Positions 1,923 through 12,424 of a stretch of DNA of 34,826 nt are shown here, in pieces. Both the position numbers and the translations under genes were made by a program. The notes under the pieces were generated by a model. That model was not told where the DNA came from. It saw nothing but the letters and a program-made list of their open reading frames with translations, and did not search any database. The number at the start of each line of letters is the position of its first letter. Position 1 is the first letter of the stretch. Origin of the DNA: Anaerolineaceae bacterium (GTDB lineage: Bacteria; Chloroflexota; Anaerolineae; Anaerolineales; Villigracilaceae); NCBI GenBank assembly GCA_009885945.1, contig VFJR01000104.1:1-34826 (forward strand). Reading direction: 5' to 3'.

Positions 1923-2903
1923 ATGCCCACCCAATCATCCTCTACACATCTGCCTTTTGGCGAAAATAAAAATGCCGAATGGTATGGCAAGGATATTATT
2001 TCTGTAAAACAGTTCAAGCGTGAAGACTTGGAATACGTCTTTGGCGTGGCGCATGAGATGCGCGGAATGGTCGAGCGTGTTGGCACCTTTGATCTGCTTA
2101 AAGGGAAAATCCTTGCGAATCTTTTTTATGAACCGTCCACCAGAACATCTTCATCATTTATCGCGGCAATGGAACGACTAGGCGGAAGTGTTATCTCGAT
2201 CAATGAAGTTAAATATTCGTCGGTTTCAAAAGGCGAGAGCTTGCCAGATACCATCCGTACCCTAGAGTGTTATGCCGATGTAATTGTTTTACGTCATCCA
2301 GAAACTGGCTCTGCGGCGATTGCGGCGAAGGCGGCGCGCAAACCTGTCATCAATGCGGGTGATGGTGTTGGCGAACATCCAACCCAAGCGTTGCTGGATA
2401 CTTTTACTATTATGGAAGAATTGGGGCGGCTAGATAACATCACCGTGACCATGCTCGGCGATTTGAAATACGGGCGCACCGTCCACTCTTTGGCGCGCTT
2501 GCTTTCAAATTTTTCAAACGTTAAATTAAATTATGTCTCACCCGATATTTTGAAAATGCCAAAAGAAGTGATGGATGAAGTTGCTGAAAAGAAAGTACCC
2601 CAAGCCGAATATTCATCCATTGAAAAAGTTTTGCCCGAAACAGATATTCTGTATGTCACGCGTGTGCAAAAAGAACGCTTCGAAGATCCCGCCGATTATG
2701 AAAAAGTCAAAGGCGCGTATGTGATTGACCCCGCGATTATGAAATCTGCCAAAAAAGAAATGGCGGTCATGCATCCACTCCCGCGCGTTGGCGAAATCAG
2801 CGTGGAATTTGACGATGATCCACGTGCGGCATACTTCCGCCAAATGGAATATGGTTTGTATGTAAGAATGGCTTTGTTGGCGATGGTGTTGGGAAAAGCC
2901 TAA
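1923..2903 (+). CDS. pyrB: Aspartate carbamoyltransferase catalytic subunit
   Basis: Condenses carbamoyl phosphate with L-aspartate to N-carbamoyl-aspartate, the committed step of cytosolic pyrimidine synthesis. The 326-residue protein has the carbamoyl-phosphate loop [12 protein letters not shown] (about residues 68-79), HPTQ in the 130s-140s, [11 protein letters not shown], and the C-terminal MHPLPR motif, all typical of PyrB rather than ornithine carbamoyltransferase. The frame can be extended upstream to a GTG at 1845. I chose the ATG at 1923 because GGAG at 1911-1914 is well spaced and the upstream extension looks non-conserved. No pyrI-like regulatory subunit is adjacent. pyrF follows 69 bases downstream on the same strand, suggesting co-transcription. 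Confidence 0.96.
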
Positions 2904-2922
2904 CTAACGTTTACAAGTTGGC

Positions 2923-2950
2923 AGGTTTGAACGTTCCAACCTTCAAACCT
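2923..2950. repeat. Small inverted repeat with AACCTTC units in the pyrB-pyrF gap
   Basis: AGGTTTGAACGTT (2923-2935) faces AACCTTCAAACCT (2938-2950) with a two-base loop and one mismatch. Further AACCTTCAA units continue to about 2963, just before the pyrF ribosome binding site (GGAG at about 2964-2967). It looks like a short dispersed repeat rather than a terminator, since no T-tract follows. Confidence 0.5.
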
Positions 2951-2972
2951 TCAACCTTCAAACTGGAGATAA

Positions 2973-3851
2973 ATGGAATCCTTTTTCTCTTTTCTCGAAA
3001 GACGCGTGGATGATTCTTCTTCGCTTTTATGCGTTGGACTTGACCCGCATATCCCCGATTTGCGTGAACCCACTGCCGCTTCTGCTCTGGAATTTTGCTT
3101 GAATCTCGTTAAGCAAACAGCGCCCTACGCCGCGGCATTTAAACCAAATGCGGCATTCTTTGAAGTCTTCGGCGCAGAGGGTTGGACGGCGCTCAAACAA
3201 GTCATCGAAGCTATTGACGCGGAATCAAAACGACTTGGTTCGATGATTCCCGTCATCCTTGATGCCAAACGCGGAGATATTGCTTCCACAGCGGAAGCTT
3301 ATGCCACCTCCGCGTTTGAAACGTTGGGCGCGCATTGCATCACATTGAATCCATATCTCGGAAAAGATTCAATTGATCCGTTCATCCAGAATCCAGAAAA
3401 AGGCGTGTTCTTGTTATGCAAAACATCCAACGCGGGTTCGGGGGATTTGCAGGATTTGATGGTGCTTGACGAAGAAGAAAGAGGAAAACAGAAAGAAGGT
3501 GATCTCTTTCCTCTTTCCTCTTTCGTTCCTTTATATATTAAGGTTGCAAGACTCGCTCATTCATGGAATACCAAAAACAATATAGGTCTTGTTGTTGGCG
3601 CAACGCACGTAGAAGCAACGAAGCGCATCCGCACCGCCGCGCCTGACTTGTGGTTTCTTATGCCAGGCGTAGGCGCTCAAGGTGGCGATTTGGAATCCGC
3701 TTTGAATGCGGGTTTGCGCAAAGATGGTAAAGGCTTGTTGATTCCTGTCTCGCGCGGAATTTCTTGGGCCGAGAATCCCGCCAAAGCCGCTGCGGAGTTA
3801 AGAGATTCGATATTAGAGATTCAAAATTCGATATTGGGAAGTGATAATTGA
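2973..3851 (+). CDS. pyrF: Orotidine 5'-phosphate decarboxylase (type 2 family)
   Basis: Decarboxylates OMP to UMP, the last de novo pyrimidine step. The 292-residue protein has CVGLDPH near the N-terminus, FKPNAAFFE, the catalytic DAKRGDI block (Asp97, Lys99 and following), LNPYLGKDS, LLCKTSN, LVVGATH and the phosphate-binding MPGVGAQGGD near the C-terminus. These fit the longer type 2 PyrF subfamily. The ATG has a GGAG ribosome binding site 5 bases upstream. Oddity: residues at about 165-185 (LDEEERGKQKEGDLFPLSS) replace what is normally a short loop. The DNA there is a palindromic purine/pyrimidine tract (3471-3524), which looks like an in-frame repeat insertion. The last residues (DSILEIQNSILGSDN) are also repetitive in DNA. 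Catalytic motifs are intact, so the enzyme is probably functional. Confidence 0.94.
   Translation: MESFFSFLERRVDDSSSLLCVGLDPHIPDLREPTAASALEFCLNLVKQTAPYAAAFKPNAAFFEVFGAEGWTALKQVIEAIDAESKRLGSMIPVILDAKRGDIASTAEAYATSAFETLGAHCITLNPYLGKDSIDPFIQNPEKGVFLLCKTSNAGSGDLQDLMVLDEEERGKQKEGDLFPLSSFVPLYIKVARLAHSWNTKNNIGLVVGATHVEATKRIRTAAPDLWFLMPGVGAQGGDLESALNAGLRKDGKGLLIPVSRGISWAENPAKAAAELRDSILEIQNSILGSDN
3477..3524. repeat. Palindromic purine/pyrimidine element inside pyrF
   Basis: GAAAGAGGAAA at 3477-3487 is the reverse complement of TTTCCTCTTTC at 3507-3517 and again at 3514-3524. The right arm is three exact tandem copies of CTCTTTC (3504-3524). The element is read in frame and encodes a charged, low-complexity loop of about 17 residues in PyrF. 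Confidence 0.6.
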
Positions 3852-3895
3852 AGTAGAAAGTAGAAATACTTTACTTTCTACTTTCTACTTCAATT
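3846..3895. terminator. Perfect 21-bp hairpin between convergent pyrF and amidase-family genes
   Basis: Bases 3846-3866 are the exact reverse complement of 3875-3895, with an 8-base loop. The left arm contains the pyrF TGA stop and the right arm reaches the stop codon of the minus-strand gene (3894-3896). The placement suits a bidirectional terminator, although there is no clean T-tract. The arms contain the GTAGAAAGTAGAAA unit that recurs elsewhere in the window, so this may be a mobile or dispersed repeat used as a terminator. Confidence 0.6.
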
Positions 3896-4805
3896 ATTCC
3901 CATGCATCGTGTTTCAATACAGCATGTACTCCCAACACTTTGTTTGCAATTTGAGTAACGCGCAGGTCAACGACTACGCTGGCTAAGGCAAGCGCATCGG
4001 CACGGGTGACATTTTTTTGTTCGACCATGAGATCGAGCATGGCATCAAGCGCGGTTCGTGCGGCAAGGTTGAGGCTTTCATCAAAGCCGAGGGTCAGCCA
4101 GCAGGTTGGGGTCCAGGCACGAGGCGTTGAAATCGTCAAGTTGGGGTGAAGATGAAAAGTTAATTGGGCATCATCTATTGGGCATTCGATTCCTGTGTTG
4201 CTGACCTCGCCATCGCCTTGGGCGGCGTGACCATCGCCTGTGGAAAATAATCCGCCAGTGACTGCGATTGGCAAATAAAGAATCGTGCCCGCGACAAGTT
4301 CTTTGCAATCTATGTTGCCGCCTGTGACGCGCGGCGGATGTGTCTTATGTTGACCTTCTTCGGCAGGCGGCATGCCCATCACGCCCATGAAAGGATGAAG
4401 CGCAATTTGATGATCGTGTTGATTGCGCCCGCGCATTTGATCGGGGTCAAGTTCCCATAGATGCAATACTTGACCTTCTGGGGTTTTACCGCCAACCGTC
4501 CAACCCCATGTGTCAGTGCGGATTGAGTCTATGTGAATGGCAAGGGTCATGCCTGGTTCAGCGCCGCGAATGAACACGGGTCCGCATAAGGCATGACCAG
4601 ATGGATCTTCATTAGCCGTTTTGCGCGGTGGTGGGCCCGTCTTGGGGTCAACGAGTGTGACAGAATAATTTTCCAAGCCCCATTCGGCGTCAATTGTTTT
4701 GAAATGGATCGTATCACCTGAATCAATTGTAAGAACAGGAGCGAGGTCGCGCGAGAAAAATCCGTGCAATGTATTTTCGTTTGGTTCGATTTTGAAAGTT
4801 GGCAT
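3894..4805 (-). CDS. Acetamidase/formamidase-family amidohydrolase
   Basis: The 303-residue protein resembles the FmdA/AmdA family, which hydrolyses formamide, acetamide or related short amides to ammonia and the acid in the cytosol. Family-like features are the N-terminal HGFFSRDLAPVLTIDSGDTIHFKT, the GPVFIRGAEPGMTLAIHI segment, the FMGVMGMPPAEEGQHKTHPPR block, the GGNIDCKELVAGTILYLPI stretch and GDGHAAQGDGEVS. Length is usual for the family. The ATG is preceded by GGAGG with a 6-base gap. It is convergent to pyrF and 134 bases downstream of the MOSC gene on the same strand. The exact amide substrate cannot be read from sequence, and some family members are annotated only as putative amidases. 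Confidence 0.88.
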   Translation of the reverse strand: MPTFKIEPNENTLHGFFSRDLAPVLTIDSGDTIHFKTIDAEWGLENYSVTLVDPKTGPPPRKTANEDPSGHALCGPVFIRGAEPGMTLAIHIDSIRTDTWGWTVGGKTPEGQVLHLWELDPDQMRGRNQHDHQIALHPFMGVMGMPPAEEGQHKTHPPRVTGGNIDCKELVAGTILYLPIAVTGGLFSTGDGHAAQGDGEVSNTGIECPIDDAQLTFHLHPNLTISTPRAWTPTCWLTLGFDESLNLAARTALDAMLDLMVEQKNVTRADALALASVVVDLRVTQIANKVLGVHAVLKHDAWE

Positions 4806-5767: not shown

Positions 5768-6376
5768 ATGCCAGATTTATCCCCGCGCCTCATTCTACTT
5801 GCTGACGAACTTCTCTCGGCTGGTTGTATCAAGTTTGGAGAATTCACCCTCAAGTCTGGGTTGAAGTCTCCCATTTATGTTGACCTGCGTCAAATTATTA
5901 CCTACCCAAAATTGTTGGAACAAATTGGCGCGGCTTATTTGCCTTTGCTCAAAAATTTGAAATTTGAACGCCTTGCTGGCTTGCCTTACGCCGCCATCCC
6001 AATCGCGACGGCTATTTCTTTGCAGGGAAATTATCCGATGATTTATCCGCGCAAGGAAGTGAAAGCGTATGGCACCAAAGCGGAGATTGAAGGTGAATAC
6101 CACGCAGGCGAAACTGCTGTCATTATTGACGACCTCGCCACAACGGGCGGAAGCAAATTTGAAGCGATTGAAAAACTCACTGGCGCGGGCTTGGTTGTGA
6201 AAGATGTGGTTGTGTTAGTGGATCGCCAATCTGGCGCGAGGGAATCTTTGGAGCAAGCAGGGTATGCCATGCATTCAGTGTTGACAATTGGTCAGTTGCT
6301 GGATTATTGGGAAGAGACGAAGAAAGTAGAAAGTGGAAAGATTAAAGCGACGAGAGAGTTCTTGAATCAAGAATGA
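5768..6376 (+). CDS. pyrE: Orotate phosphoribosyltransferase
   Basis: Transfers ribose 5-phosphate from PRPP to orotate, giving OMP, the substrate of the nearby PyrF. The 202-residue protein has the FGEFTLKSGLKSPIYVDLR N-terminal block, GLPYAAIPIATAIS, YPRKEVKAYGTKA and the PRPP-binding VIIDDLATTGGSK (about residues 117-130), which is diagnostic of type I PRTases. The ATG has AAGGA at 5756-5760. The C-terminus (KKVESGKIKATREFLNQE) is encoded partly by the dispersed 15-base repeat GTAGAAAGTGGAAAG. Two small genes follow closely on the same strand. Confidence 0.95.
   Translation: MPDLSPRLILLADELLSAGCIKFGEFTLKSGLKSPIYVDLRQIITYPKLLEQIGAAYLPLLKNLKFERLAGLPYAAIPIATAISLQGNYPMIYPRKEVKAYGTKAEIEGEYHAGETAVIIDDLATTGGSKFEAIEKLTGAGLVVKDVVVLVDRQSGARESLEQAGYAMHSVLTIGQLLDYWEETKKVESGKIKATREFLNQE
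6326..6340 (+). repeat. Dispersed repeat GTAGAAAGTGGAAAG, copy A (3' end of pyrE)
   Basis: An exact 15-base copy of the unit also found at 7116-7130, and closely related to GTAGAAAGTAGAAA at 3853-3866. Here it is read as V-E-S-G-K. Confidence 0.55.
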
Positions 6377-11215: not shown

Positions 11216-12424
11216 ATGAATCGTAAACTCAAACTTCTTTTTATTTCAACCACAGTGTTGACACTGCTGATGGGCACGAATCAGGTTCGGGCGCAGGCAG
11301 GAATCGAGTTGTTAAATGCGCGGGCTTCGCATCACTTTGGGGCAGATATCACGTTCGAGGCGCAGATCCAGTCTTCGATTCAAATTCAAGAAGTAAATTT
11401 ATTATTCCGTGAGACGCGTGAAGAAACCACGCGCGTTGAAAAACTGGAGCGTGACGCAAATGGAAATGTGCGTTTTCAATTTGATGCTTCGCAAAAAATA
11501 TTCCCGCCATTTAGCTGGATCGAATTTTGGTATCAGGTGACGCTCACTGATGGAAGCGCGTATGCCAGCGATCCTATTTCTTATTTTTATAGTGATAATC
11601 GTTTCACGTGGCGAGAAAATAAAGAAGGACCTGTCACCATTCATTGGTACGATGGCGATGATGCTTTTGCGCGCAATGCTTTGGATGTTGCAGGCAGTGG
11701 TCTATTGGGTATGAAAGAAGTTGTTCCGTTAGTGCTGGATAAGCCGTTTGATATTTATATTTATTCCACGAATCAGGATTTGCAAGGCGCGTTGGAGCTT
11801 GGCGGGCATCAATGGATTGGCGCACATGCAGACCCGGCTTTGGGTGTCGTGATGGTGGTGGTACAGCCCGGCGACCGCCAAAATATTCAAATGGAAATTG
11901 AACTGCCGCATGAATTAACGCATGTGATGATGTATCGTTCTTTAGGAGATGGCTACGCAAGATTGCCAGCCTGGTTTCGTGAAGGTGTGGCGTCTATGAT
12001 GGAGAAATATCCTAATACTGATTATGCACAGGCGTTGAAAATTGCGACTAATAATAAATCTTTGATTTCCATCACTGATTTGTGCGCTTCCTTCCCCACG
12101 GATGCCGGACGCGCCTTTCTAGCGTATGCCGAAGCTCAATCATTTACCACCTACTTGCGCGACACGTATGGCGTCACCCGCTTCCACGCTTTGACTCAAG
12201 CGTATGCAGATGGTATGAGTTGTGAAGTGGGCGCAACGTATGCCATTGGACTGCCGTTAAGTTTGTTGGAACGTAATTGGAGTCAATCTGTGCTTGGGCA
12301 GGACGCAACGGTTGTAGCTGTAAATAACATGTCCCCTTATCTTATTTTATTGGGCTTGATCATGTTTGTGCCGTTGTGGGGCGCGATTGAAGTGTTACGT
12401 GGACGTACTAACCGTGCAGGTTAA
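11216..12424 (+). CDS. Membrane-anchored zinc metallopeptidase, peptidase MA-like (gluzincin)
   Basis: The 402-residue protein begins with a signal peptide (MNRKLKLLFISTTVLTLLMGTNQVRAQ) and ends with one transmembrane helix (about 378-393) followed by a basic tail, so the catalytic part is outside. A beta-rich N-terminal half (about 30-145) precedes a peptidase region with HELTH at 232-236 and the downstream Glu256 in LPAWFREGVASMME, the gluzincin arrangement of the peptidase_MA_2 family. A ribosome binding site is weak (AAAAGG about 5 bases before ATG). It is 54 bases after the transporter, possibly co-transcribed. The biological substrate is not known. Confidence 0.88.
   Translation: MNRKLKLLFISTTVLTLLMGTNQVRAQAGIELLNARASHHFGADITFEAQIQSSIQIQEVNLLFRETREETTRVEKLERDANGNVRFQFDASQKIFPPFSWIEFWYQVTLTDGSAYASDPISYFYSDNRFTWRENKEGPVTIHWYDGDDAFARNALDVAGSGLLGMKEVVPLVLDKPFDIYIYSTNQDLQGALELGGHQWIGAHADPALGVVMVVVQPGDRQNIQMEIELPHELTHVMMYRSLGDGYARLPAWFREGVASMMEKYPNTDYAQALKIATNNKSLISITDLCASFPTDAGRAFLAYAEAQSFTTYLRDTYGVTRFHALTQAYADGMSCEVGATYAIGLPLSLLERNWSQSVLGQDATVVAVNNMSPYLILLGLIMFVPLWGAIEVLRGRTNRAG

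Follow-up and report, generated by a model that had tools for sequence, protein, structure and literature searches.

How does a run of 7-nt repeats come to lie inside the gene of an essential enzyme, and to be translated with it? The question is raised by pyrF, the gene for orotidine-5'-phosphate decarboxylase, in a stretch of 34,826 nt (contig VFJR01000104.1 of assembly GCA_009885945.1; hereafter, the window) from an Anaerolineaceae bacterium of the phylum Chloroflexota. Protein-coding palindromes are best known from Rickettsia. A first-pass annotation of the window, made from the sequence alone, had proposed that pyrF carries an in-frame palindromic repeat insertion that adds a loop of about 17 residues and spares the catalytic motifs. 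Here, we describe this insert as one copy of a dispersed class of arrays of 7-nt units that is co-resident with the unrelated palindromes GTAGGGGCG and CCTCACCCC. Very probably, the dispersed elements of these genomes, palindromes as well as heptamers, enter sites by insertion, replace one another and disappear again, and those within genes persist in frame in tolerant loops.

The insert and the PyrF loop that it occupies

The window PyrF scores 242.9 bits against the TIGR02127 (pyrF_sub2) profile, with a cut-off of 110.6, and its AlphaFold2 model, built from 49 sequences (predicted local distance difference test (pLDDT) 91.6, pTM 0.90), is predicted to share the fold of the Leishmania orotidine-monophosphate decarboxylase 3qw3 (TM 0.92 on target length). 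The inserted stretch, approximately residues 165-185, falls into blocks with mean pLDDT of 79-91. At the DNA level, the insert (positions 3468-3524) is an imperfect hairpin in which three perfect copies of CTCTTTC follow a purine arm (Table 1), with an inverted repeat that can be aligned in two registers (3477-3496 with 3505-3524, 85% complementary; 3472-3487 with 3507-3522, 94%). Its folding energy is -13.4 kcal/mol compared with -8.5 kcal/mol for shuffled sequences (z -2.4; 6 of 200 shuffles equally good), so that by energy the hairpin is moderate, and the periodicity is the stronger signal. Compared with a 13-aa loop, 17 residues of the encoded peptide LDEEERGKQKEGDLFPLSSFV are extra, a count of length only, given that no near-identical insert-free allele was seen to fix the exact ends. 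The figure of 17 residues is correct because the window loop is 30 aa long and that of the insert-free relatives 13 aa; relative to the Leishmania enzyme, the loop is 18 residues longer. K99, D102 and the KTSN block are unchanged across the 49 aligned PyrF sequences. The hairpin-like insert, the size of the loop and the sparing of the catalytic motifs thus all stand as first proposed.

Table 1. Positions of pyrF, its insert and the other heptamer repeats in the window
Feature	Positions	Strand	Remarks
pyrF, orotidine-5'-phosphate decarboxylase (TIGR02127)	2973..3851	+	292 aa; profile match, predicted fold
In-frame insert region encoding LDEEERGKQKEGDLFPLSSFV	3465..3527	+	between DLMV and PLYIK
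Purine-rich arm, degenerate period-7 repeat	3472..3498	+	Tandem Repeats Finder: period 7, 70% matches
Pyrimidine arm, three CTCTTTC units, exact	3504..3524	+	period 7
Heptamer hairpin, TACTTTC units	3844..3897		arms 23 nt, 100% complementary
Imperfect intergenic hairpin, AACCTTC heptamers	2915..2964		immediately upstream of pyrF
AGAAAGT heptamer array	6321..6340	+	in open reading frame 5768-6376, near C terminus (KKVESGK)

Among the relatives, the same loop is either free of inserts or occupied by one of a set of unrelated repeats, namely GAAAG heptamers, GTCCAYC-like heptamers, GTAGGGGCG palindromes or CCTCACCCC palindromes. A pyrF gene was matched in 135 of 152 genomes of the family, and 110 loci were taken (two each from G038 and G053), of which 103 yielded a parsed loop and 7 did not; the named relatives are mostly from Anaerolineales or Chloroflexi metagenome-assembled genomes, including a Villigracilaceae bacterium. 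With classes assigned by motif (L164, initially placed with the GAC heptamers, was reassigned manually to 'other'), the 103 loops comprise 23 short ones, 30 with a conserved 18-aa loop, 14 others, and 36 with a recognised repeat insert (9 GAAAG heptamers, 14 GAC heptamers, 9 GTAG palindromes, 3 CCTCACCCC palindromes and 1 GAATTC). Loop length ranges from 13 to 35 aa, with inserts of approximately 5 to 22 residues beyond the short form, and the rest of the protein is nearly constant (250 of the 256 columns of the loop-free alignment kept). Loops of at least 19 aa (37/103) have a lag-7 identity of 0.426 versus 0.228-0.323 at lags 4-6 and 8-12, and an inverted-repeat score of 9.6 versus 5.4 when shuffled; as groups, the 18-aa and the shorter loops lack both signals. 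The ends of the GTAGGGGCG palindromes are set by the search pattern, and their inner bases vary by copy and are themselves palindromic in most short copies.

On a tree of the PyrF protein minus the loop (a quick tree, with 39 of its 100 inner branches drawn open), the repeat classes are scattered: GAAAG heptamers require 8 changes for 9 rows, GTAG palindromes 8 for 9 and CCTCACCCC palindromes 3 for 3, none of these being clearly better clustered than shuffled labels. The presence or absence of an insert requires 17 changes; when only the starred branches are counted, the minimum is 3 changes for GAAAG, 4 for GTAG, 5 for GAC and 3 for CCTCACCCC. Within genus g6, the loci L007 and L022, with flanks 90.1% identical (ungapped, 720 nt), carry GAAAG heptamers and a CCTCACCCC palindrome, respectively. 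One site is recurrently occupied and the kind of occupant differs between close relatives; a single mobile family was rejected as the explanation, several families being found in this loop. Alignment of the relatives revealed a loop that is not conserved, and the DNA recurs elsewhere, the opposite of the outcome (a conserved loop with DNA confined to this site) that the first-pass annotation had named as refuting its proposal.

Recurrence in the genome, the family and other proteins

The search for the repeat elsewhere in the same genome, suggested in the first-pass annotation, returned 45 matches to CTCTTTCCTCTTTC (at most 1 mismatch; neighbouring registers of one array are counted separately) compared with 1 for the mirror sequence. 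In 299,166 bases, consisting of the window and 20 stretches picked by contig number, 9 period-7 arrays with a lag-7 score of at least 11 were detected versus 0.0 in Markov-3 sequence. At a score of at least 9, there are 86 arrays in 614,701 bases, a sample that includes 20 stretches picked for holding matches, versus 2, 6 and 11 in three Markov-3 sets. The arrays are dispersed, and 46 of the 86 lie within stop-to-stop open reading frames (ORFs) of at least 120 aa (38 ORFs), an ORF alone being no proof of a gene; for the contig-number sample, the corresponding fraction is 11/20. The family scan covered 30 of the 38 array-bearing ORFs (29 of 37 without pyrF), and 24 of these 29 match a Pfam or NCBIfam family with an E-value of 1e-5 or better, the other 5 matching none. 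These families include PriA, MutS, HisD, aconitase, MoeA, biotin carboxylase, a GATase_5 protein (phosphoribosylformylglycinamidine synthase-like) and a DEAD helicase with the MrfA Zn-binding domain. The unit proposed in the earlier annotation is indeed found inside other genes and does recur; it is not, however, a single purine/pyrimidine unit, but a class of 7-nt-unit arrays, some of them hairpins, that shares its site with unrelated palindromes.

Two other proteins of the genome gain length from their arrays when compared with homologues in the PDB: PriA, where one array adds 17 aa beside the zinc cysteines, and HisD, where the array adds approximately 11 aa. A PriA match was obtained in each of 80 genomes, and 30 loci were compared. 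The linker in the zinc region is 5 to 38 aa long (29 of 30 loci parsed), with 10 of the 29 at 5-6 aa and free of repeats, and the linker preceding Walker A (14 of 30 parsed) contains, in several loci, heptamers of differing units (CCTTCAT, CCTTCAA, CGCCAAT, CTCTCCG and TCATCAC). In this, the PriA linkers resemble the PyrF loop.

Across the family, the pattern for period-7 CTTTC arrays, CTTTCNNCTTTCNNCTTTC, produced 1273 matches in 64 of 100 genomes, compared with 19 matches in 14 of 100 for a period-8 control (6 of the 19 being one CTTT tetranucleotide run), which was used since the CTTTC pattern is its own mirror, voiding the mirror control. In a sample of 201 genomes from the phylum, the CTTTC pattern was present in 11 of the 13 family members and in 6 of the 188 remaining genomes, with at most 4 matches in each of the 6. 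Different units prevail in other genomes: three successive GTCNAYN units yielded 738 matches in 47 of 61 genomes, 2 of them in the genome of the window. GTAG palindromes (GTAGGGGCGN{4,34}CGCCCCTAC) were found in 11 of 12 genomes searched, versus 2 of 12 for the mirror control, and CCTCACCCC palindromes (CCTCACCCCN{12,40}GGGGTGAGG) in 5 of 12 versus 0 for the control, with none in the genome of the window. The median CTTTC count is 42 in genomes with GAAAG inserts compared with 6 in those with GAC inserts (one-sided p 0.009; 6 of 9 and 11 of 14 genomes sampled, respectively).

Several further repeats accompany these. Hairpin 3844-3897 begins within the last pyrF codons and extends into the intergenic stretch, and ORF 5768-6376 is, by our own reading, a putative pyrE. 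The last 100 bases of the contig (34727-34826) form a perfect palindrome, which may have arisen as an artefact at the end of the assembly. Elsewhere in the genome, locus L071 (contig C48) carries, outside ORFs of at least 120 aa, two arrays of about 10 copies each, approximately 8 kb apart (AGGTTTC at 3608-3680 and TTACGAT at 11812-11883), and a single ORF with ADH and GFO/IDH/MocA domains (L067:11105-13279, contig C11) contains five heptamer arrays.

Close relatives and competing explanations

The genomes G135 and G136, approximately 97-98% identical, could be aligned across 242,010 of 400,000 bases in blocks that are 95.4-98.9% identical, apart from one block of 881 bases (135751-136631) at 88.5%. 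Thirteen differences (junctions, or gaps of at least 6 nt) were listed, of which 7 involve, by our own reading, heptamer arrays or dispersed palindromes (at 105525, 126418, 135738, 136631, 142978, 221351 and 334749); the others are 2 changes in Pro/Thr-rich repeats, 2 large differences and 2 diverged blocks. Three genes differ in frame. An enoyl-CoA hydratase-like gene has a 24-nt difference at its start, between flanks that are 99.2% (left 1000 nt) and 95.7% (right 300 nt) identical, and its CGCTCAGNACAAGCC motif recurs in the PriA linkers of L276 and L278. TlyA contains different heptamer arrays (+45 nt; flanks approximately 95% identical), and so does MutS2 (+18 nt), with 300-nt flanks on both sides 98.7% identical and some 25 nt adjoining the array that also differ. 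Two further observations were made in this pair: a 79-nt GTCATTG...CAATGAC element (G135:C1 ~1404518-1404606) is carried by only one of the two genomes, the other having a near-clean empty site, and in one genome a GTCACGCTTTTAGCGTGAC palindrome (+9 nt) precedes a DPPR motif within coding sequence (A position ~134864-134882).

Old variety at these sites might instead have been shuffled by homologous recombination between species, with little current mobility. Some of the differing sites are located in or beside stretches of lower identity, such as the TlyA flanks and the 88.5% block, and the differing nucleotides beside the MutS2 array fit such an exchange; allele exchange is therefore part of the story. 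As the whole of it, we regard exchange as possible but not likely, given that the enoyl-CoA hydratase-like gene and MutS2 differ despite their closely matching flanks, and that the origin of the variety is left unexplained.

Alternatively, heptamer microsatellites could have arisen in place by polymerase slippage in weakly selected loops, with no movement at all. Heptamers are over-represented among the tandem repeats of many bacteria, and a polymerase-footprint hypothesis has been put forward (PMC4692102, PMC4679880); 59 of the 86 arrays have no clear second arm; and the arrays of MutS and PurD sit in proteins of about unchanged length. Slippage, however, does not make the GTAG and CCTCACCCC palindromes found at the same PyrF site and accounts neither for complementary arms nor for the replacement of one unit sequence by another in MutS2, where the flanks are nearly identical, making local expansion distinctly unlikely.

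That the PyrF loop is a selected functional feature of this family is very improbable: a repeat insert is present in 36 of 103 loci and 30 rows retain an 18-aa loop of another kind, but sequence, length and DNA family differ among close relatives, and a conserved functional loop was rejected on the grounds of this variation. Least probable of all is a coding RNA or DNA signal (a terminator or binding site), for which the moderate hairpin energy speaks, but the sequence is unconserved, the insert lies mid-gene, and no Rfam family reached the gathering score within positions 2800-4000, where five weak matches to microRNA models fall on hairpin 3844-3897, off the insert.

The explanation that we favour, dispersed elements that insert, are swapped and are lost, would operate as follows. 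Copies would arise at many genome sites, and those borne by genes would survive only where a tolerant loop had received them in frame and without stops. One such site would be the stretch of PyrF following KTSN..DLQD, repeatedly filled, emptied and refilled by different families. Most likely, single-stranded hairpins would be copied during replication, by template switching or by an HUH-type nuclease, and slippage in the 7-nt register would change the number of units. We infer that the elements move, and the copies are probably neutral or selfish rather than useful.

Several results weigh against this explanation. A complementary arm within 60 nt that is better than all 20 shuffles accompanies 27 of the 86 arrays, so that the term 'hairpin' does not cover the whole class. 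Heptamers lacking stops on both strands are not significantly enriched among the arrays in ORFs (24/46 versus 16/40, p 0.29), and selection for such heptamers was dropped as a factor. The genome has 4 Y1_Tnp matches, and no heptamer array was found in these transposase loci (3.0-3.4 kb; GTAG repeats were not looked for there), which leaves REP-associated tyrosine transposases (REP, repetitive extragenic palindrome) unsupported as the mover of heptamers. Little or no net length is added by the MutS and PurD arrays relative to PDB homologues; they were accordingly not counted as insertions and may represent overwriting or chance. The mirror control of the GTCNAYN pattern gave 256 matches in 25 of 61 genomes, which may represent further heptamer families; one of the two CCTCACCCC matches in G014 is the PyrF copy itself; and CTTTC arrays are numerous in two genomes with GAC inserts, G017 (56 matches) and G025 (53 matches). 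On the PyrF tree, the GAC heptamers are weakly clustered (11 changes for 14 rows, a count at least as low in 15 of 500 shuffles), and the loop labels taken together are clustered (40 changes versus 64 shuffled; 0 of 200 as low), above all because the 18-aa and the short loops group.

A further-reaching proposal is that these repeats are a distinct kind of mobile or template-made DNA, with a fixed 7-nt register, free unit sequence and lineage 'dialects', that rewrites loops of PyrF, PriA, MutS2 and TlyA as species split. Under this proposal, which we hold to be doubtful, the fixed register would point to a copying activity with a 7-nt step.

Relation to known repeats and significance

The repeats described here were compared with known systems. 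Rickettsia palindromic elements (RPEs) are short palindromic DNAs inserted in frame into unrelated metabolic genes (PMC10969869). The likeness to them suggested in the first-pass annotation holds in principle, in that in-frame palindromic DNA occurs in genes of many functions (the ORF-borne arrays; the insertions in PyrF, PriA and HisD), but not in anatomy: RPEs are approximately 150 bp long with a conserved peptide, whereas the PyrF inserts differ in sequence and length and share no conserved peptide. These inserts are built either from 7-nt units whose sequence changes or from other palindromes, and they belong to unrelated families that reuse one site.

GTAG-tagged repeats have been reported in Chloroflexi, and intragenic REPs in several species, more than half of the intragenic ones occurring as dimers or groups and encoding 20-30 aa, with the GTAG tag described as unpaired and adjacent to a stem-loop (PMC3733652). 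The palindromes of the relatives resemble these in their GTAG end, their presence in Chloroflexi and their intragenic location; the window insert, in contrast, lacks GTAG and is a heptamer array. The GTAG of the relatives' copies pairs with CTAC, but the search pattern demanded both, and some PyrF copies, for example that of L018, have no CTAC. Published heptanucleotide repeats, such as those of cyanobacteria, GGGNATC of Xanthomonas/Nostoc and TAACTGA of Beggiatoaceae, are dispersed, mostly in short arrays, over-represented in non-coding or intergenic DNA and of one main unit type (PMC4692102, PMC4679880). The present arrays share with them a dispersed distribution and 7-nt units arranged head to tail, a unit length commoner than others, but differ in having units that vary within and between genomes, some complementary arms, and more than half of the arrays (46/86) in ORFs. 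With miniature inverted-repeat transposable elements, the terminal inverted repeats were compared, a complementary arm being present in the 27 arrays mentioned above. As far as these accounts go, RPEs are nearest in behaviour, GTAG REPs are nearest to one co-resident family and heptanucleotide repeats are nearest in unit length, and none of the three has all the features seen here. A literature search for heptamers or palindromes in Chloroflexi or Anaerolineae found no paper, with limited coverage of subscription papers, so that absence from print is not implied.

In a phylum other than that of Rickettsia, then, unrelated repeat families reuse one loop of an essential enzyme, and the kind of repeat at a site differs between species that are approximately 90-98% identical around it. 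These genomes provide a natural comparative series for studying the entry of foreign peptide stretches into proteins, the tolerance of individual loops for them and the spread of 7-nt repeats.
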